From contig NC_009712.1 in assembly GCF_000017625.1 (NCBI RefSeq), forward strand, positions 2,046,001 to 2,110,000: 64,000 nt of DNA, given 5' to 3'. The stretch comes from Methanoregula boonei 6A8 (lineage in GTDB: Archaea > Halobacteriota > Methanomicrobia > Methanomicrobiales > Methanospirillaceae). Of this stretch, positions 120 to 14,088 are shown piece by piece (the first letter of the stretch is position 1; the number at the start of each line of letters is the position of its first letter). The notes under the pieces were generated by a model. It saw only the letters and a list, made by a program, of their open reading frames with translations, made no database searches and had not been told where the DNA came from. The position numbers and the translations under genes were made by a program.

Positions 120-1082
120 TTATCCCGGTCCGGTGTTTTCCCGCTTTTTTGCCCCATCACGCCTCCATGGCTCGTTGAGAACGTTGACCGTCACGTGCTC
201 GATACCATTGACACCAAGAGCCTTAAGTTTCACCTGTTCCGACAGGTGATCCGAAAGGGGGCAGCCGCTACAGGCAAGAACCAGATCGATCTCCACGCTG
301 GTACCTTTTACCCGGACCGCTTTGACCAGACCGAGATCGATGATGTCAAGGCCCACTTCCGGATCGATTACTTCGCGCAATGCATCGCGAATCTGGAGTT
401 CCCAGATCAGTTCTTTCTGGACTGAGGGTGAGGCCGGAGCCGGTTGTGCCTGTTCTATGAGGCGGAGCCGCTCTTCAAACTGGTTCTGCCGCTCCAGCAA
501 CCGGCTGGCCACACGGAGCACCGGGTCGGGAAGTACCTCGCCGGCGATTTCCTCCTCCATACCCCGATCCAATCCGGCAATCCTGCCCGGGACCCCGACT
601 ACGGTTGCCCCAGGGGGAACTGACCTGACCACAACGGATCCGGCCCCTACTTTTGCGCCTTTGCCAATAATGATAGGGCCAAGAACAATGGCACCGGATC
701 CCAGCGTCACTCCAGCCTCGATAGAAGGGTGGCGTTTGACATTTTCAAGCGCTGTCCCGCCAAGCACAACACCCATATAAATCAGGACATCGTCGCCAAC
801 TTCGGCAGTTTCGCCGATAACAATACCCATGCCATGGTCAATAACCACACGGCGGCCGATCGTAGCGCCCGGATGGATCTCAATCCCCGTCAGGAACCGG
901 TTGATATGGGAAACCAAACGCCCCCAGAATTTTAAACCGTGAGACCAGAGCCAATGTGCCCTGCGGTGAATCCAGAGCGCATGGAGTCCGGGATAACAGA
1001 AGAGCACTTCGACGGTAGAACGGGCCGCCGGATCCTTGGAAAAAATGGCCTGTATATCCTCCCGCAGCCGGTCAAAAACCAT
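120..1082 (-). CDS. cysE: Serine O-acetyltransferase fused to a DUF59/MIP18 domain
   Basis: Makes O-acetylserine from serine and acetyl-CoA, the acceptor for sulfide in cysteine synthesis. Residues about 1-180 are a typical short CysE: an N-terminal helical part ([15 protein letters not shown]), then the left-handed beta-helix hexapeptide repeats, with the catalytic [16 protein letters not shown] stretch near 81-96 and [12 protein letters not shown] near 108-119. After a linker, residues about 222-308 form a DUF59/MIP18 (SufT-like) Fe-S assembly domain with [14 protein letters not shown] and a CSGCP motif (C271, C274). Bacterial CysE lacks this second domain. The gene follows cysK by 13 bp and is probably cotranscribed from the promoter near 2100. 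The enzyme call is firm; the role of the fused domain is inferred. Confidence 0.93.
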
Positions 1083-1095
1083 AATTATTCCTCAT

Positions 1096-2025
1096 TTAAG
1101 CTTCGAAGAGTTCCGTACTCAGGTATCTCTCACCGGTATCCGGGAGAATGACAACAAGCGTCTTGCCCGCAAATTCAGGCCGGGCTGCCACCTGGAGCAC
1201 CGCCCATGTGGCAGCTCCACCGGATATACCGATCAGGATCCCTTCCTCTTTTGCCATACGCCGTGCGGTGGCGACAGCATCCTCGTAAGTTACGCGGATT
1301 ACCTCATCTATCAGGTCCATCTTAAGCACCGGCGGAATGAAACCTGGTGCCAGTCCCTGGATCTTGTGAGGCCCGGCCTGTCCTCCGGACAGGACGGGTG
1401 ATGCATCAGGTTCAACCGCAATAGCCTTAAAGGATGGCCTGCGGGGTTTGATTACTTCTGCAACACCCGTGAGGGTCCCGCCAGTTCCTACTCCTGCAAT
1501 GATAGCATCCACATTTCCATCGGTATCCCGCCAGATCTCTTCGGCGGTGGTCTTCCGGTGAACGGCAGGGTTAGCCGGGTTCCGGAACTGCTGGGGGATA
1601 TAGAAGCACTTGGGGTTTTCTTCAAGAAGTGCCTCGGCCTTCGCTATCGCACCTTTCATGCCCTCCTTTCCGGGAGTAAGAATCAGTTCCGCTCCAAAGG
1701 CCCTGAGGAGTTTTCTCCGTTCAATGCTCATTGTTTCAGGCATGACGAGGGTTATCCGGTATCCCCGGGCCGCGGACACCATTGCAAGCCCAATCCCGGT
1801 ATTCCCGCTGGTAGGTTCAAGAATGATCGTATCCGGTTTGATAAGCCCGGCTGCTTCTGCCGCATCGAGCATGGCATATCCGATCCTGTCCTTGACGCTG
1901 CCCATGGGGTTGAATGATTCAACCTTGGCTAGCACCGCAGCTCCCAGACCGCGGGTAACGCGATTGAGGCGCACAAGCGGGGTGTTGCCGATTGTTGCAG
2001 TAATATTGTCGTAAATTTTTGCCAT
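1096..2025 (-). CDS. cysK: Cysteine synthase (O-acetylserine sulfhydrylase)
   Basis: PLP enzyme that replaces the acetyl group of O-acetylserine with sulfide to give cysteine. At 309 residues it has the normal CysK length. The PLP lysine lies in [13 protein letters not shown] (about residue 45), the substrate loop is [10 protein letters not shown] and the phosphate-binding loop is [10 protein letters not shown]. It is the first gene of a minus-strand pair with the acetyltransferase. The operator-like palindrome at 2085-2098 lies between its TATA-like element and the start codon, suggesting repression by a sulfur regulator. Confidence 0.95.
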
Positions 2026-2084: not shown

Positions 2085-2098
2085 TTCACAATTGTTAA
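2085..2098 (-). promoter_or_regulatory. Operator-like palindrome of the cysK-cysE promoter
   Basis: Read on the minus strand the site is TTAACAATTGTGAA, the identical 14-mer found before the sufS-like gene at 2805-2818 in the same orientation relative to its gene. A TATA-like CTATATC lies about 20-25 bp upstream, so the site would sit near the transcription start, where a repressor would act. Confidence 0.6.
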
Positions 2099-2203
2099 CT
2101 CTTAAGAGATGATATAGTTTGGTTTTCTGCAGGATGGCTCTGCGTTCGGAGGTCTAAAAGATGCCATTTAAGTAATCGGAATTAAAACTCGTGGCAAAAT
2201 CCA

Positions 2204-2430
2204 ACACAAAATCAGGATATATTATCAAAACGGGTCAATATTATCGTGTTCACATCTACGTGAACAGGAAAACGGCCATGAATACACACTACGCGAATAT
2301 CGCGGGTCATACGGCCGGTCTGCTACCTGCAGGAAATGTTGTCTGTGTCACTGCACTACCCTTGCCCCAAAAGCTGGCGGTACGTTCAAGCAGCGTAGGA
2401 GGCTCCGGGCAGTATTGTACGCCAAAAGAG
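2204..2430 (+). other. Conserved upstream element E1 (homologous to 11917-12140)
   Basis: This part of the 828-bp gap between cysK and the desulfurase aligns with 11917-12140. Shared blocks are AAAATCAGG(A/G)TATAT, then an inverted repeat 37 bp later (TGTTCAC-N6-GTGAACA at 2247-2266), then CTCCGGGCAGT about 157 bp further on (160 bp in the second copy). The first block reads as a TATA-type promoter. A weak 82-codon ORF (2191-2439) shares KSGYI and RVH..VN with a reading frame in the second copy, so a small peptide cannot be excluded; a conserved promoter plus leader or small RNA is my preferred reading. The rest of the gap (2431-2800) shows no clear gene. Confidence 0.5.
2247..2266. promoter_or_regulatory. 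Inverted repeat TGTTCAC-N6-GTGAACA
   Basis: A perfect 7-bp inverted repeat with a 6-nt spacer. Its arms contain the TTCAC/GTGAA half-sites of the CAATTG-type operators at 2085, 2805 and 6260, with a spacer of 6 instead of 4. The same arrangement recurs at 11960-11979. Confidence 0.5.
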
Positions 2431-2804
2431 CTGATTTGAACCGGCTTCCTGTGATCACTTACAGCACCCTGCAGGAGATTTCCGGTTACGGGTATACGCC
2501 CGTAAGGGACATATCCTGAATATCCTGATCACCAACGATCCGACTTTCCACTCACGGCATTATCTCGCGGTGTATGGTCAATATATCCGCCGGATCGCCA
2601 ATCGCCTCATGTACCACAACCTCTTCATCTCCTCCTAGGCATTCGGGATAGTCCACACTCCCCGGCTGCGGCTCTTTTTCTGAGGCTACAGGACCATGAT
2701 CCTCATGCAGGCTCACCATCAGGAGTGATGCCTGCCTGATAAAGACCCATAGTTTTCGTAGCATCAGGGAATCTTCCCGTTTTGTCCGACAGGTATAGTA
2801 AGAA

Positions 2805-2818
2805 TTAACAATTGTGAA
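2805..2818 (+). promoter_or_regulatory. Operator-like palindrome before the cysteine desulfurase
   Basis: TTAACAATTGTGAA, identical to the cysK operator read in gene direction. A TATA-like GGTATAGTAA is about 12 bp upstream and the start codon is 36 bp downstream, so the site overlaps the expected transcription start. Confidence 0.6.
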
Positions 2819-2853
2819 CTCCAATATAATATTATCAGCAGGGTAAAGTACTG

Positions 2854-4038
2854 ATGATTCCCGATACAATCCGTAAGGATTTTCCGCTGCTTTCCTCGGT
2901 CTGCTACCTGGACAGCGCCGCAACCAGCCTTTCACCGGAGCCGGTCCTTAACGCAATGCTCGAGTACGAGCATACCTGCCGGGCAAATGCCGGCCGCGGC
3001 GTCCACAGGCTCGCCCAACAAGCCACCCAGAAATACAAGGAGGCCCATGAACGGGTCAAAAAATTTATTCATGCCGAAGAGGGGGAAGTCGTTTTTACCC
3101 GCAACTCCACCGAGGCGATAAACACGGTCGCATCGGGCCTTTCCTGGCATGAGGGGGAGGGTATCATTTCCACCCTCCTTGAACATCATAGTAATCTTCT
3201 TCCCTGGATGCGCCTGCGTGACCACCAGGGGCTCGACCTCCGTTTTTTGACACCGGCACAGGACGGAGCCTTGGATCCGGCTGCCCTGGAGGCGATCATT
3301 ACCAAAAAGACGCGCCTTGTGGCCATCACCGAGACCTCCAACGTTCTTGGGAACGTCGTTCCGGTCAGTGAGTTTGCAAAAATCTGTCATGATTATGGGG
3401 CGCTCCTTCTGGTGGACGGATCCCAGTCTGTTCCCCACATCCCGGTAGATATCGGGAAGAGCGGTTGTGATTTTTTCTGTTTTTCCGGACACAAGATGCT
3501 TGGACCTACCGGCACCGGTGTCCTGTTCATGAAAGAGCCCTGCCTGGAGCCCCTCGTTGTTGGGGGAGGAAGCGTGGAACGGGTTACAGCCGCAGGGTAT
3601 ACACTTACCGGGGGATATGAGCGGTACGAATCCGGTACACCCAATATCGCAGGTGCGATCGGTCTTGGCCGTGCCATCGAATACCTCAACTCTCTGGGCA
3701 TGGAAAATATTCAACGCCATGAGCAGGCAATCACCCGGAGAATTATCGAGGGTCTGACCGGGATCGGGAACCTCCATATCTTTGGTCCCGGCCCATCAGG
3801 AAACCGGATAGGGGTTGTCTCGTTTACCCTGGACGGCTTTAATCCCCATGATGTTGCCATCCTTCTGGACAGTGAAGCAGATATTATGGTACGGTCCGGC
3901 CACCACTGCTGTATGCCACTCATGGATTGCCTGCACCTTTCCGAGGGTACGATCCGTGCAAGCCTGCATTGCTATAACACGATGGAGGATGCAGATCGGC
4001 TCGTAGAAACTGTCGGAAAAATTGCCGGGGAACGGTGA
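2854..4038 (+). CDS. sufS: Cysteine desulfurase, SufS/CsdA type
   Basis: PLP enzyme that takes sulfur from cysteine as an enzyme-bound persulfide for Fe-S clusters, thiolation or cofactors. At 394 residues it is a typical class II (SufS) desulfurase. The PLP lysine is in FSGHKMLGPTGTGVLF (about residue 214) and the catalytic cysteine in VRSGHHCCMPLM (about residue 352), matching the SufS RxGHHCA motif although the residue after the catalytic Cys is another Cys. The stop overlaps the possible GTG start of the following E1-like gene, so persulfide sulfur may be passed to that protein or to the ThiI-like protein nearby. Confidence 0.92.
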   Translation: MIPDTIRKDFPLLSSVCYLDSAATSLSPEPVLNAMLEYEHTCRANAGRGVHRLAQQATQKYKEAHERVKKFIHAEEGEVVFTRNSTEAINTVASGLSWHEGEGIISTLLEHHSNLLPWMRLRDHQGLDLRFLTPAQDGALDPAALEAIITKKTRLVAITETSNVLGNVVPVSEFAKICHDYGALLLVDGSQSVPHIPVDIGKSGCDFFCFSGHKMLGPTGTGVLFMKEPCLEPLVVGGGSVERVTAAGYTLTGGYERYESGTPNIAGAIGLGRAIEYLNSLGMENIQRHEQAITRRIIEGLTGIGNLHIFGPGPSGNRIGVVSFTLDGFNPHDVAILLDSEADIMVRSGHHCCMPLMDCLHLSEGTIRASLHCYNTMEDADRLVETVGKIAGER

Positions 4039-4055
4039 ACGCAGGGATACGGGGG

Positions 4056-5159
4056 ATGGTTTTGCCAGAGAAAATAGATGAAAAGAGAAGACACACCTCA
4101 GAGGTGTCAGCAGCGGGCATATCCCGGGATCCTCTGCTGAAAAAGCCGGACCGGTACTGCCGCCAGCGTCTGCTTCCCCAGATTGGTGCAGACGGGCAGC
4201 ACAGATTAAACGAGAGCCGTGCCGTGATTGTCGGTCTCGGGGCCATGGGAAGCGCCGTGGCAACAAATCTTGTACGGGCAGGAATCGGGGAGGTCAGCCT
4301 GATTGACCGGGACTTTGTGGAGCTGCACAACCTCCAGCGTCAGGTTCTGTTCTGTGAGGAGGACGTGGACCGTCCCAAGGCTGTCGCTGCAGCGGACAGT
4401 CTGCAAAAGATCAATTCCTCCATAAAAATCGATTTTCACACCAAAGATCTCAACGTAACCAATGCCGAAAAACTCCTTGCCGGGGCAGATATTGTCCTTG
4501 ACGGGACCGATAACCTCCAGACCCGATTCCTCATCAACGATGTCTGCGTAAAGCATGTTATCCCGTGGATCTATGCCGGGGCAGTAGGTACAAGCGGTAT
4601 GGTGATGCCCATTATACCCCAAAAGACCCCCTGCTTCCGATGCCTTGTCCCTGAGCTTCCCGGACCGGGCCTGCTCCAGACGTGCGATATTGCCGGGGTT
4701 CTTAATACAGCCCCTACCCTCATTGCCTCCCTTGAATGTACTCTTGCCTTCCAAATCCTCACCGGCCAGCTTGAAACAAAAGACGAAACTGCATATCTGA
4801 TCAGTGCCGATCTCTGGTACCAGACTTTCGATCGGATTGCCGTAGGGAAGCAGAAGGAGTGCCCTTGTTGCGGGAAGGGCAGGATGGATTTTCTTGAAGC
4901 CACCACCCGGGAGATGATTACATCCCTGTGCGGCCGGGACGCAATCCAGATCGCCCCGGTGGCTGCCATGGAAATATCTCTCGAAGAACTAAAAGAGAGG
5001 CTTTCACGGATTGGTGAGGTCCAAGGGACCAAATTTATGCTTACGTTCCGAACGGAAACAGAATCTATCACCGTCTTCCGTGACGGGAGGGCTATCATCC
5101 AGGGCACAAAGGATGAGGCAAAAGCCCGCTCGGTCTATGCCCGGTACATAGGGCTCTGA
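4056..5159 (+). CDS. ThiF/MoeB/HesA-type E1 adenylyltransferase with extra C-terminal domain
   Basis: E1-like enzyme that adenylates the C-terminus of a ubiquitin-fold sulfur carrier (ThiS, MoaD or SAMP). The nucleotide-binding loop is GLGAMGSAVATNLVRAG, followed by DRDFVELHNLQRQ and GTDNLQTRFLIND; CPCCGKG is a probable zinc-site remnant. The last ~65 residues (from about SLEELKERLSRIGEV to the end) form a separate small domain with a DGRAI motif that also occurs alone in the protein at 5198-5521. I chose ATG 4056; an in-frame GTG at 4035 overlapping the previous stop is also possible. No sulfur-carrier gene is seen nearby. Confidence 0.85.
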   Translation: MVLPEKIDEKRRHTSEVSAAGISRDPLLKKPDRYCRQRLLPQIGADGQHRLNESRAVIVGLGAMGSAVATNLVRAGIGEVSLIDRDFVELHNLQRQVLFCEEDVDRPKAVAAADSLQKINSSIKIDFHTKDLNVTNAEKLLAGADIVLDGTDNLQTRFLINDVCVKHVIPWIYAGAVGTSGMVMPIIPQKTPCFRCLVPELPGPGLLQTCDIAGVLNTAPTLIASLECTLAFQILTGQLETKDETAYLISADLWYQTFDRIAVGKQKECPCCGKGRMDFLEATTREMITSLCGRDAIQIAPVAAMEISLEELKERLSRIGEVQGTKFMLTFRTETESITVFRDGRAIIQGTKDEAKARSVYARYIGL

Positions 5160-5197
5160 AGAGAAAACACTGGAGATTACTCTTTTTATTTATTCAC

Positions 5198-5521
5198 TTA
5201 CCTGTACGGAGAATTCCTGTTGCCGGCCCCCCTACGGTCGCGGGGTTTCCGGATTGCTGAGGATCCTTCCAGCCAGCCGGCAATTCGCGCAGCCTGTTCT
5301 GTGGCAAGATTCTCTGAATCCGTTTTGAGGATAAGCCGCCCGTCATTATGGATCGATACCTCGCACTTGTCGTGCACAATAAGGAGAAACCTGGCATTTG
5401 TGATAATTGTACATACCTTTCCAAGGCTCTCTTCGCACCGGTCAAAATCGAGACTGAAATGTTCCTTTGGAATGGCTTCGAAGGCGGCCGTGGTCTTACA
5501 GGGCTTCAGGATCGAGTACAT
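5198..5521 (-). CDS. Stand-alone copy of the ThiF C-terminal domain (unknown function)
   Basis: A 107-residue protein whose ATG lies inside the last codons of the thiI-like gene, overlapping it by 26 bp, so the two are translationally linked. Its central part (FSLDFDRCEES to ARIAGWLEG) aligns with the C-terminal domain of the E1-like protein at 4056-5159: an LxxIG/LGKV start, a KF/RF-hydrophobic strand, a DGR(A/L)I turn and a closing YARYIG/AARIAG helix. I do not know this domain by name. Its position beside desulfurase, E1 and PP-loop genes suggests a role in sulfur transfer (inference). Confidence 0.7.
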   Translation of the reverse strand: MYSILKPCKTTAAFEAIPKEHFSLDFDRCEESLGKVCTIITNARFLLIVHDKCEVSIHNDGRLILKTDSENLATEQAARIAGWLEGSSAIRKPRDRRGAGNRNSPYR

Positions 5522-6137
5522 ACATTCCCTCCAGCGACTTTTCGATAAGCACCCTGAGATCGAGTTTCTGCTCTTCACCCAGGATATCCCCGGCCCGGGC
5601 CGCTGTTGCCGGTTTTTTGGGAACTATCGTGCAGCAAAGGCCGGGAAGCGTGGATATCTCGTACGTACCGATCCTTCGGGCGATATCAATGATCTCTACC
5701 TTGTCCATACCAATAAGCGGTCTGACTACAGGGATCCGGATCACCAGATTCTCTACCATAAGATTCTGGAGTGTCTGGCTCGCCACCTGACCCAGAGATT
5801 CGCCGGTCAGGATCCCGACAGCTCCTTCTTTCTCTGCGATTCTCTCCGCGATCCGGTACATCATCCTCCGGCAAAACAGGCAGTGCAGATGGCGCTCGCA
5901 GTTCCGTGCAAACGCTATATGGTTGGGCCCGTGAGGAACCACGTAGGTCTTGATAGGGCGCTGAGTCAGGTGCTGGAGGTGACGGATCAGGTTCATTGCC
6001 TTGTGCAGGTTTTTCTCATCGGTAAAAGGGCGGTTGTCCATATGAACAGCGATAATCTCCACCCCTTGGTGGAGCATAAGGTATGCCGCAACCGGCGAAT
6101 CAATTCCACCAGAAATAAGAGAAACCAGCTTTGCCAT
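5496..6137 (-). CDS. thiI: ThiI-type PP-loop sulfurtransferase core, without THUMP domain
   Basis: Corresponds to the ATP-pyrophosphatase half of ThiI, which activates tRNA U8 for 4-thiouridine formation (in bacteria also ThiS thiolation). The PP-loop SGGIDSPVA is near residue 9-17; a CERHLHCLFC segment and SLGQVASQTLQNL follow, as in E. coli ThiI. At 213 residues it lacks the N-terminal ferredoxin-like and THUMP domains and the rhodanese domain, so tRNA recognition must come from elsewhere or the substrate is different. A perfect TTCACAATTGTGAA operator is 123 bp upstream. Confidence 0.87.
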   Translation of the reverse strand: MAKLVSLISGGIDSPVAAYLMLHQGVEIIAVHMDNRPFTDEKNLHKAMNLIRHLQHLTQRPIKTYVVPHGPNHIAFARNCERHLHCLFCRRMMYRIAERIAEKEGAVGILTGESLGQVASQTLQNLMVENLVIRIPVVRPLIGMDKVEIIDIARRIGTYEISTLPGLCCTIVPKKPATAARAGDILGEEQKLDLRVLIEKSLEGMYVLDPEAL

Positions 6138-6259
6138 GGATGTACACCTGTATCAGGTTCAACAAGGGGATCTTCTGGGTATCCCCATACCTGAGGAGAA
6201 AGAACCGGGGGTAAAGTCTGCTTTGGCAGATCTTTTGCCCTGACCCTTTACATGTTATG

Positions 6260-6273
6260 TTCACAATTGTGAA
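6260..6273. promoter_or_regulatory. Perfect palindrome TTCACAATTGTGAA upstream of thiI
   Basis: A 14-bp perfect palindrome; the cysK and sufS sites differ from it by one base. It lies 123 bp upstream of the minus-strand thiI start and about 160 bp upstream of the divergent gene at 6435. It is the best candidate for the consensus of a sulfur regulator. Confidence 0.6.
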
Positions 6274-6344
6274 TGCTATTAGGAAATCGTGGGTGCCATT
6301 ACATAAAGGTTCTGCACAAACTGCAAGGCCGTTTAAGTCTCCAT

Positions 6345-6367
6345 ACTTTTGTTATATTACCAAAAGT
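6345..6367. promoter_or_regulatory. Inverted repeat ACTTTTG-N9-CAAAAGT before gene 6435
   Basis: Perfect 7-bp arms with a 9-nt spacer, about 68 bp upstream of the ATG at 6435. A good TATA element (TTTATATG) follows near 6402. It could be an operator for the two small genes downstream; it does not resemble the TTCAC sites. Confidence 0.4.
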
Positions 6368-6434
6368 AATACTTTCGTTCATTTTTGCCTCAAAATTATG
6401 CTTTATATGCATACAAGGTAACCTAATACTAACT

Positions 6435-6791
6435 ATGCAGACAACAATAGATCGCGAGACCCGCCGGGAATACCGGCAGAAGATTCTCGCCAACCTTTCC
6501 ACCATCGTCAACGAGATTGACGAGCTTGACCGGGTAGCTGCCCAGGCACGGAACCACCTGCATCTGCACGACCGGTTCTTTTTCCAGCAGGGAGCTAACC
6601 TTCAGGAGGACGAATCGTACGGCACCCGAGAAGATCTGACAGAATTGTACCTGGACACCTGCCAGATGATATCCAGGCTCAACCGGGCCCGGGCACACAT
6701 GAGTACCGTCTGCAACCTCATGCACTTCTATGATTACTCATCAAATCCTGTCTTCCAGAGGTACACAGCAGAGGAGGCACAGCAGCAATGA
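6435..6791 (+). CDS. Conserved-looking hypothetical protein, 118 aa
   Basis: Not recognised. The ATG at 6435 follows a clear TATA element (about 6402) by ~30 bp, giving a nearly leaderless message. The sequence is helical and charged (TRREYRQKILANLSTIV and EIDELDRVAAQARNHLHLHD), soluble, without signal peptide or membrane segment. It overlaps the next small gene by 4 bp (ATGA), so the two are one transcription unit. Helical-bundle character is inferred from composition only. Confidence 0.65.
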   Translation: MQTTIDRETRREYRQKILANLSTIVNEIDELDRVAAQARNHLHLHDRFFFQQGANLQEDESYGTREDLTELYLDTCQMISRLNRARAHMSTVCNLMHFYDYSSNPVFQRYTAEEAQQQ

Positions 6792-7012
6792 CTTACGGTA
6801 CGTTAGGGTTTGGATTCTTCCGGGACAACGCACGGTTCCGGCAGAAGGTCCTGTACTGGCACATCATGCCGGCATGCTCGGAGCTGGGATTCCGGTGCGA
6901 AGGAAAGTCCACCGCTGAATCCCTGGAGTCCTTTTCAGAGGGGATCCGTATCCAGAGCCAGATGGCCTTTGCATCGGCTGCTGCGCAGCTCGCAAGGGAC
7001 AGACTCATGTAA
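6788..7012 (+). CDS. Hypothetical protein, 74 aa, coupled to the preceding gene
   Basis: Starts at the ATG of an ATGA overlap with gene 6435. Soluble, with two cysteines (ACSELGFRC). No family recognised. Tight coupling to the upstream gene supports it as real and suggests the two products act together. Confidence 0.55.
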   Translation: MTYGTLGFGFFRDNARFRQKVLYWHIMPACSELGFRCEGKSTAESLESFSEGIRIQSQMAFASAAAQLARDRLM

Positions 7013-7154
7013 TTTTTGCACGGTATATCCCATCAGGTCCTGACAATTTCTTTGTTTTCCTTTGAGTATTGGCCCAATTGCCGGCTCGAATGGCAAAATG
7101 ATTTTTACCGCTATCTATATCCTTTTAAGCATAAACAAAGAACTATTGGGATAC

Positions 7155-7168
7155 ATCACAATTGAGAA
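7155..7168 (+). promoter_or_regulatory. Imperfect TTCAC-type operator in the 434-bp leader of the CBS-like gene
   Basis: ATCACAATTGAGAA keeps the CAATTG core of the sites at 2085, 2805 and 6260 with one mismatch in each arm. It lies in the 7013-7446 gap, about 20-30 bp after an A/T-rich TTTTAAGC element near 7128. That would leave a leader of nearly 280 nt before 7447, in which I see no credible gene. Confidence 0.4.
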
Positions 7169-7446: not shown

Positions 7447-8427
7447 GTGAAATTCTATGAAAATATTATTGACACCATTGGCAGTACGCCACTCATCCGC
7501 CTCCATCGCGTGCTTCCCCCGGAGACGCAGCCGCTCGTTTTGGCAAAAACAGAGAGCTTCAACCCAGGGGGGAGTGCCAAGGACCGGATTGCAAAGGCAA
7601 TGCTCCTTGCTGCCGAGCATGACGGGAAGATCCAGAAAGGGGGAACCGTTGTCGAACCGACCTCGGGAAATACCGGGGTCGGCCTCGCTCTCTTTGCCGC
7701 ATCACGGGGGTATCGGATGGTCTTTACCATGCCCGAGAAGATGAGCAAGGATAAGGAGCTCCTCCTCCGGGCCTTCGGGGCAGAGGTGATCCGGACACCC
7801 ACAAATGTGCCGCCCGAGGATGAGAGGAGTTATTACAAGGTGGCAGAAAAGGTGGCAAAAGAGACGCCGGGATCCTTTGTCCCCAACCAGTTTGCAAACC
7901 AGAACAACCCGCAGGCCCATTTTGCCACGACGGGCCCGGAAATCTGGAAGGACACTGACGGAGAGATCACCCATTTTGTCGCAGGAATCGGGACCGGTGG
8001 CACGATCTCCGGGACTGCGCGGTACCTCAAGGCTAAGAACCCGGACGTCAAGATCATCGGTGTAGATCCCGAAGGTTCAATTTATCACCATGTATTCTAT
8101 GGGACGCCTCCCGAATCCCACCCCTACAAGGTCGAGGGAACCGGAGAGGATTTTATCCCGGCAACCGTGGATCTCGATATCGTAGACGATATTATCGTAG
8201 TCAGCGATGCCGATGCATTCCGGACGACACGGCGACTGGCGCGGGAGGAGGGGATCCTGGCCGGGGGAACCGCAGGTGCCTCAGTCTTTGCGGCCGCACA
8301 GGTAGCGCAGAACCTCAAGAAAGACGACCTGGTTGTTGTGCTGCTGCCGGATACCGGCCGCAACTATATCACCACGATCTTTAATGACGAATGGATGAAA
8401 AATAACGGCTTTGGGGACGTGATATGA
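7447..8427 (+). CDS. Cystathionine beta-synthase-like / cysteine synthase PLP enzyme
   Basis: Fold-type II PLP enzyme of 326 residues. The PLP lysine is in SFNPGGSAKDRIA, followed by TSGNTGVGLA and GIGTGGTISG. The segment DPEGSIYHHVFYGT then YKVEGTGEDFIP is typical of cystathionine beta-synthase rather than CysK, but the regulatory CBS pair is absent. It is followed one base later by a cystathionine gamma-lyase-type gene. Together they would run homocysteine plus serine to cystathionine to cysteine (reverse transsulfuration), or the first enzyme could be a second cysteine synthase. It differs clearly from cysK at 1096-2025. Confidence 0.88.
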   Translation: MKFYENIIDTIGSTPLIRLHRVLPPETQPLVLAKTESFNPGGSAKDRIAKAMLLAAEHDGKIQKGGTVVEPTSGNTGVGLALFAASRGYRMVFTMPEKMSKDKELLLRAFGAEVIRTPTNVPPEDERSYYKVAEKVAKETPGSFVPNQFANQNNPQAHFATTGPEIWKDTDGEITHFVAGIGTGGTISGTARYLKAKNPDVKIIGVDPEGSIYHHVFYGTPPESHPYKVEGTGEDFIPATVDLDIVDDIIVVSDADAFRTTRRLAREEGILAGGTAGASVFAAAQVAQNLKKDDLVVVLLPDTGRNYITTIFNDEWMKNNGFGDVI

Positions 8428-9589: not shown

Positions 9590-9702
9590 TCAAAAGGGGT
9601 GAGGGAGAAAAGATGATGATGTAACCCATGAAAAGTTTCTTCCAGGTTTCCCACAGCCTGACCGGGGAACCGGGCAGCGATCCAGAAAAAAATAATTCTA
9701 GT

Positions 9703-9775
9703 GCCGGTGTGGCAGAGCGGTTAATGCCTTCGCCTGCAGAGCGAATGTCTGGGGGTCCGACTCCCTCCGCCGGCG
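9703..9775 (+). tRNA. tRNA-Cys (GCA)
   Basis: Folds as a full cloverleaf: acceptor GCCGGTG/CGCCGGC, U8, D arm closed by GCA/TGC with GG in the loop, anticodon stem TTCGC/GCGAA around CTGCAGA (anticodon GCA), and a T stem GGGGG/CCCTC. No intron and no encoded CCA. The base after the acceptor stem reads as G, whereas tRNA-Cys normally has U73. It stands 24 bp before cysS. Confidence 0.93.
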
Positions 9776-9799
9776 TCCAAAACAACGAGGATCACTGCC

Positions 9800-11652: not shown

Positions 11653-11916
11653 TCGCCCCGTACCGGCATTATATATCACACCTCATCATCGCTGTACAAC
11701 CGGGCGATCTTCGGGGGATCCCTTCCCATTAAAAAAGGATCCTCCCTCTGCCCGGCACTTTTGTAACCCCACTTACCTTGTTCAAGGATATCTCCCTTTT
11801 ACCCACCCCGCACATGGCGGACTTTGTGGTATTCCGTAGGTGCCACCGGCCCGGCATACCTGCCACACGCATTTGCCGTACTGGTATTCAAAACCAGAAA
11901 TTACCGGCAAAAATGA

Positions 11917-12140
11917 GCGTAAAATCAGGGTATATACCACGGGCAGATCCATATGCACGTGTTCACTCTTTCGTGAATAAGGTGAAAAGAAGTATGACTA
12001 CCCTTCCCTGGTATGCCCCGCAACCTGTTACACTTTGGCGAACCGGTGGCGCGTATGGTACTTCCTGTTCCGGCGCAGAACCCGCAGGAGTTGTAGAACG
12101 GCTGGGCGGCATCCGGAGCTCCGGGCAGTGTTGTCGTCAG
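11917..12140 (+). other. Conserved upstream element E2 (homologous to 2204-2430)
   Basis: Lies in the 1.03-kb gap before the O-acetylhomoserine sulfhydrylase gene. It begins with AAAATCAGGGTATATACC (a TATA-type promoter), carries TGTTCAC-N6-GTGAATA at 11960-11979 with the same 35-bp offset as in E1, and ends with CTCCGGGCAGTGTTGT at 12119. No convincing gene is seen in 11653-12684; the ORFs there lack coding character, apart from short in-frame similarity (KSGYI..., RVH..VN) with E1. Confidence 0.5.
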
Positions 12141-12444
12141 AAACATGGCTTATCAGAGTCCGCCAGATGAGAATCTTCTACCGGTGCAGCACCAAAAGGG
12201 CAGGATGCGCCGGTTTTTGATTCCCGTCCTACCAGGAGAGTCCCTCCTCGGCCGGTGAGCACCACGCACCGGCCACATTCCCGTCGTCTCATGAAATATT
12301 GCCTCAAAAGATCGATTGCACACCCACCCGGGAGTTTCGGCCCCCCCGGGTACCTTTTCCTTCGCATTTTCTCTCATTCCAGATCACATGCCGACTACCG
12401 TGACCGACGAAAGAGGTACCGGCGGTATCCGATACAGACAAAAT

Positions 12445-12519: not shown

Positions 12520-14088
<1,569 letters not shown>

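Follow-up and report, generated by a model that had tools for sequence, protein, structure and literature searches.

Conserved palindromes as putative operators of cysteine and sulfur genes in methanogenic archaea, with a predicted frameshift at a cysteine codon in an associated regulator gene

The window analysed here is a stretch of 64,000 nucleotides from the genome of Methanoregula boonei 6A8 (RefSeq assembly GCF_000017625.1, contig NC_009712.1, positions 2,046,001 to 2,110,000 of the forward strand), and the element in question is a palindrome, TTCACAATTGTGAA, that stands upstream of genes for cysteine and sulfur metabolism. Judged by genome comparison, these palindromes are widely conserved and accompany the genes of cysteine and sulfur metabolism in methanogenic archaea, tRNA-Cys genes included. 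They are likely to be the operators of a cysteine/sulfur regulon, in which a small XRE-type protein (Cro/C1 helix-turn-helix, HTH) would be the most likely binder and a winged-helix protein, produced by frameshifting, would form a second layer. With a little less assurance, we also think it probable that the winged-helix gene holds a natural 'hungry' cysteine-codon +1 frameshift sensor, present in several methanogen families of one archaeal phylum, by which a transcription factor would be produced exclusively under Cys-tRNA shortage and, in Methanomicrobiales, within a regulon whose repressor would also control the tRNA-Cys genes. Methanogens need large amounts of iron-sulfur (Fe-S) proteins and, to our knowledge, how they control their supply of sulfur and cysteine is little understood.

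The putative operators in the window are:

2085-2098, minus strand: one mismatch to the palindrome, forward-strand letters TTCACAATTGTTAA, minus-strand reading TTAACAATTGTGAA, 59 bp upstream of the cysK start
2805-2818, plus strand: TTAACAATTGTGAA, one mismatch, with the start of a sufS-like gene 35 bp downstream and a TATA-like GGTATAGTAA just before it
6260-6273, no strand assigned: perfect copy, 122 bp upstream of a ThiI-type gene
7155-7168, plus strand: weak candidate ATCACAATTGAGAA, two mismatches, about 280 bp upstream of a CBS-like gene

A first-pass annotation of this DNA had placed one 14-mer in equal orientation upstream of cysK and sufS and a perfect palindrome upstream of thiI; the letters are exact at all three positions and the orientation relative to the genes matches. 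The ThiI-type gene is site-bearing in another genome as well (G064). The weaker copy that had been reported before the CBS-like gene does exist, but it lies far from the gene start and the CBS-like gene is absent among the site-linked targets of the other tabulated genomes.

Within the window the number of sites is unremarkable: at up to three mismatches there are five, against a mean of 2.85 in shuffled sequence, and 11 of 100 shuffles reach five. The complete genome (2,542,943 bp), with the reversed pattern as control for the counts, gives seven sites against none at up to one mismatch and 14 against four at up to two. Six of the two-mismatch sites elsewhere in the genome were inspected and three lie inside open reading frames, so most sites of this class are probably due to chance. 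A set of 120 Methanomicrobiales genomes contains about 189 sites, compared with seven for the control (169 of the sites summed by script, the remainder and the controls by hand). The palindrome is kept in orthologous promoters of several families and occurs in Methanosarcinaceae-like genomes (family f8, which we take to be Methanosarcinaceae), where the XRE gene is also present. That the excess is mere chance, or reflects a repeat element unrelated to regulation, is scarcely credible: the weak statistics of the window taken by itself would allow it, but the count over the 120 genomes and the finding of the site at the same genes in different families speak against it.

Every one of the seven M. 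boonei sites with up to one mismatch is followed by a cysteine/sulfur gene, a tRNA-Cys gene or a regulator gene. Those outside the window, in genome coordinates, are:

2123443: 6 bp before a tRNA-Cys gene, which is followed by the genes for SepCysS and a Met17-type protein
2124823: 8 bp before a second tRNA-Cys gene, followed by a radical SAM gene
2126127: upstream of the small winged-helix gene
2197449 (a weaker copy stands at 2197422): in the interval that separates the XRE-type HTH gene from a NifS-type desulfurase gene

The separate sulfur regulon suggested by the first-pass annotation is borne out by the neighbours of the sites in 25 genomes. Neither of the outcomes that the annotation had named as refuting was observed: the palindrome is not scattered over non-sulfur genes, and orthologous promoters keep it. 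Three elements were absent from that annotation, namely the tRNA-Cys targets, the likely regulator and the second, apparently frameshifted one. Of 128 sites in the 25 genomes, 108 have a gene start no more than 200 bp away that belongs to a cysteine, sulfur or Fe-S gene, to tRNA-Cys or to either candidate regulator, a count that includes PdxS, ThiN, MetX and AtwA neighbours named by eye and not by library test. Because the loci were chosen as site-bearing and a site between two divergent genes was scored for both, the 25-genome figures describe the sites and are not proof of regulation; the reference set came mainly from the sulfur loci of M. boonei. The tRNA-Cys genes are the commonest target (16 genomes), followed by NifS (14), XRE (13), the winged-helix gene (11), NadA (10), CysK (8) and SepCysS (6). 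The recurrence of NadA, an Fe-S enzyme and not a sulfur gene, counts against the cysteine/sulfur regulon.

Two further observations concern these loci. A third tRNA-Cys gene, at 9702-9779 of the window and directly before cysS, has no operator within three mismatches, while the other two (locus L015) have one each. The Met17-type gene at genome position 2120616-2121911 in the same locus, behind tRNA-Cys and SepCysS, is nearly identical over most of its length to the one at window position 12685-14088.

The XRE-type protein has 115 amino acids and is encoded at 2197054-2197401 of the M. boonei genome (G000), divergently from the cysteine desulfurase gene. Its match to the Pfam family HTH_3 is borderline (23 bits against a cut-off of 23). 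HTH_3 was the only Pfam domain found at E<=0.001; neither an Rrf2 domain nor a ThiN-like ligand domain of the kind that would define a ThiR protein was among the matches. NCBIfam gave no match and the PDB no sequence relative at E<=0.1. Among 62 distinct orthologues, C5, C87 and C101 are present in all and C90 in 61, and these four conserved cysteines (C5, C87-x2-C90, C101) are possible ligands of an Fe-S cluster or a metal. An operator with up to two mismatches is found within 200 bp upstream of the XRE gene in 56 of the 62, mostly at 45-48 bp, which suggests that the gene is probably autoregulated. In Methanomicrobiales genomes at least 90% complete, a close XRE homologue (at least 90 bits) and at least two copies of the motif occur together far more often than expected (Fisher's test, p = 4e-9; 1e-11 without genus g23, which has the XRE gene and no motif).

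Several points weigh against the XRE protein as binder. The assignment draws on co-occurrence and on the autoregulatory position of the site; genome G051, 96% complete, has five sites and no close XRE homologue; and genus g23 and some genomes of family f22 carry the XRE gene without this motif. The palindrome might instead be bound by the small winged-helix protein, or by a shared complex of both, an arrangement we consider unlikely. The winged-helix gene also has the operator in its promoter, in M. boonei and in other Methanomicrobiales, and a distant paralogous pair of XRE and winged-helix genes lies side by side in this order, so the two families may act together. Set against this, genomes G002 and G008 combine the operator and the XRE gene with no winged-helix homologue at E<=0.001, which means that XRE alone can account for the site. 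Eleven genomes with at least three sites have no close winged-helix orthologue, and at loci L245-L248 a winged-helix gene is found without an operator just upstream. The winged-helix protein as sole binder was set aside on all these grounds. The XRE protein is retained as the candidate binder, and any task of the winged-helix protein, for example as antagonist or partner of XRE, is a guess.

The distant paralogous pair is adjacent in most Methanomicrobiales (loci L105, L113 and similar; 479471-479976 in the M. boonei genome). Its promoter often contains a GTTAAC-N3-GTTAAC repeat, which is also seen before some of the frameshift genes described below (L231-L233 and L244).

Repressors of archaeal promoters act in the interval from the TATA box to the gene start. 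TATA-like sequences are found upstream of the palindromic sites. They are clearest in front of tRNA-Cys genes, one example being CTATAAATA some 30 bp ahead of the site, and several tRNA-Cys promoters have a second, weaker copy of the palindrome, TTCACAATTGTTAT, beside the TATA box. In the 25-genome table, 19 sites end 6-15 bp before a tRNA-Cys gene. The regulator most likely represses, since the operator directly follows the TATA box and lies about where transcription is expected to begin; the repressor proposed from the initial reading of the DNA fits this placement, and the palindrome binder probably acts in this way. An activator, or a protein that both activates and represses, seems a doubtful alternative. 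Some sites are indeed far from the gene start, that of the ThiI-type gene among them, but the positions downstream of TATA-like sequences and close to the tRNA 5' ends are, from general knowledge of archaeal promoters, typical of repressors, and the likely autoregulation of the XRE gene from a site about 45 bp upstream agrees with this. With repression as the preferred mode, the XRE protein would repress fully when sulfur, Fe-S clusters or cysteine suffice, and insufficiency would lead to derepression of cysK, the cysteine desulfurases, SepCysS, sulfur-carrier genes and the tRNA-Cys genes.

The winged-helix gene has an unusual layout. A conserved zero-frame start reads ATG-AGG-GAT-CGU-UUU-UGU (M-R-D-R-F-Cys) and the winged-helix frame is +1 to it. 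In M. boonei there is no ATG, GTG or TTG in the winged-helix frame before the HTH; this frame opens at a TGA that overlaps the ATG of another frame, and that ATG is preceded by a good Shine-Dalgarno sequence (GGTGATC) and begins a short reading frame encoding M-R-D-R-L-C-C-K-Y-N-R-N-stop. The same layout occurs in all 16 specialised orthologues recovered by a protein search of the order and in family f8 and other families of the phylum; a pattern scan that covered about 85,000 species brought up 18 stretches with it. Altogether 59 of 86 distinct winged-helix homologues have this architecture, while a normal ATG begins the paralogue that is universal in Methanomicrobiales, and some of the other homologues as well. 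A search of the PDB with the winged-helix protein returned only weak MarR/Lrp-type relatives. In one genus of family f8 (loci L237-L239), the frameshift gene is near a radical SAM gene of the type that is site-linked in Methanomicrobiales.

The 59 frameshift genes have TTT (55) or CTT (four) in the P site and TGT (57) or TGC (two) in the A site, both codons having been built into the rule by which the genes were detected; a relaxed scan with the A-site codon left free gave TGT or TGC exclusively. The slip codon directly adjoins the Cys codon throughout, the zero-frame stop comes 0-6 codons after it, and the linker is anywhere from 10 to 28 codons long with the phase kept. A Shine-Dalgarno match of the GGTGA or GGAG type precedes the scored zero-frame ATG in 45 of the 59. 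No ATG, GTG or TTG is present anywhere in the +1 frame of 36 genes, including that of M. boonei, and in such members without a start of their own the ribosome appears to have no way into the winged-helix coding frame other than a +1 frameshift at the Cys codon. On the simplest reading, it would slip +1 at (U/C)UU-UG(U/C) while waiting for Cys-tRNA. Scarcity of Cys-tRNA would thus yield the full winged-helix protein, and plentiful Cys-tRNA the short peptide M-R-D-R-F-C, ending at the nearby stop; the layout suggests a shift on a 'hungry' Cys codon, in which case synthesis of the regulator would depend on a shortage of Cys-tRNA.

Some features count against this interpretation. A +1-frame GTG overlaps the shift window in 11 of the 59 genes and an in-frame start lies between the shift and the HTH in 14, so that these genes could start conventionally. 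Changes within the shift window are synonymous in the zero frame at positions 8 and 14 and in the +1 frame at positions 3 and 9, and codon-level selection therefore favours neither frame cleanly. The Methanosarcina-type loci L245-L248, mentioned above for lacking the operator just upstream, do show the predicted frameshift. The genes with possible starts lend some weight to a simpler explanation, in which no frameshift takes place, M-R-D-R-F-C is a cysteine leader peptide (attenuator) and the regulator begins at GTG, CTG or another unusual codon; many members have a CTG within the sequence H-L-P-P that could serve. We regard this as improbable, as CTG is missing in other members (for example L091, L093 and L096), more than half of the genes have no conventional start in frame, the phase is maintained across linkers of very different length and the slip and Cys codons are always adjacent. 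Transcriptional slippage at the T run, as opposed to a ribosomal shift, is more improbable by far. Most members have a run of five T, but it is reduced to three in M. boonei (CGTCTTTGT) and to four in CGCTTTTGT variants, and runs of three or four are too short for known sites of transcriptional slippage.

The genes beside the window sites are:

120-1082, minus strand: cysE, for a serine O-acetyltransferase that carries a fused FeS_assembly_P (DUF59) domain, behind cysK on the same strand
1096-2025, minus strand: cysK, for cysteine synthase, upstream of the cysE-DUF59 fusion
2854-4038, plus strand: SufS/CsdA-like cysteine desulfurase
4035-5159, plus strand: ThiF/MoeB-type adenylyltransferase, overlapping the desulfurase gene
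5496-6137, minus strand: ThiI C-terminal-type PP-loop sulfur-transfer protein
7447-8427, plus strand: CBS/CysK-like pyridoxal-phosphate enzyme, of uncertain membership in the regulon

Two of the gene names first given are too specific. The product labelled thiI is a ThiI C-terminal (PP-loop) protein but scores below the ThiI equivalog cut-off, and that labelled sufS is a SufS/CsdA-like cysteine desulfurase but scores below the cut-off of the SufS subfamily. Variants of the palindrome with a 6-nt spacer, located by the same reading at 2247 and 11960, are in fact at 2249-2264 and 11962-11977, and TTCAC-N6-GTGAA occurs five times in the genome against three for the control, a frequency at chance level. 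The short stretches around the two sites are weakly and colinearly similar to one another, and with these counts and host stretches the variants were dropped as operators. The stretches themselves (about 2191-2440 and 11778-12170), which contain the N6 palindromes, encode similar predicted peptides, KSGYI...YxRVHxxVN.

Parts of the proposed system resemble others already described. Like the NrpR and MsvR operators of methanogens, the sites are palindromes at archaeal promoters, but they differ in sequence and in target genes. In the bacterial IscR and CymR regulons for Fe-S clusters and cysteine, a DNA-binding regulator likewise controls desulfurases or cysteine synthesis; here, the fold is XRE and not Rrf2, the promoters are archaeal and the tRNA-Cys genes are predicted to be direct targets. 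The short open reading frames of mycobacterial cysteine attenuators also sense Cys-tRNA through their Cys codons, but in the winged-helix gene the protein continues in the shifted frame, usually without a start of its own.

A close likeness is to the bacterial gene of release factor 2 (RF2), prfB, which shares the short zero-frame start reading frame, the CUU or UUU slip codon followed by U, the slow A-site codon and the +1 product, and whose sensor-and-effector role may be compared with that of the winged-helix gene (PMC5009743). The A site of prfB holds a UGA stop and that of the winged-helix gene a Cys sense codon, so the latter is RF2-like in mechanism and is not RF2. Its product is predicted to be an archaeal winged-helix DNA-binding protein, and a Shine-Dalgarno stimulator inside the reading frame, spaced as in RF2, is not established for it. 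In the hungry-codon frameshifting of Gallant and co-workers, too, a shortage of aminoacyl-tRNA slows the A-site codon and favours slippage (PMC5009743), there as a laboratory or starvation effect. A 2016 review knew of no trans-frame protein made for starvation conditions (PMC5009743). For archaea, one case of -1 frameshifting (fucA1) and a likely magnesium chelatase case had been described by 2021, and the sole +1 case was in a haloarchaeal virus (PMC8211752). Our literature search, with subscription papers mostly outside it, found no paper on the XRE regulator, the operator or the M-R-D-R-F-C peptide, and the accessible part of the GeneTack paper names no frameshift cluster of the winged-helix kind.

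The outcome of the analysis is a putative operator, a candidate regulator and a list of target genes, with relatives in genetically tractable Methanosarcina-type genomes. An amino-acid regulon that directly controls tRNA-Cys genes would be unusual. The frameshift, if true, would be the first natural instance of hungry-codon frameshifting used for a starvation-specific protein, going by the reviews cited (PMC5009743, PMC8211752), and a cellular +1 case in archaea, a domain in which one -1 case was reported by 2021 (PMC8211752).

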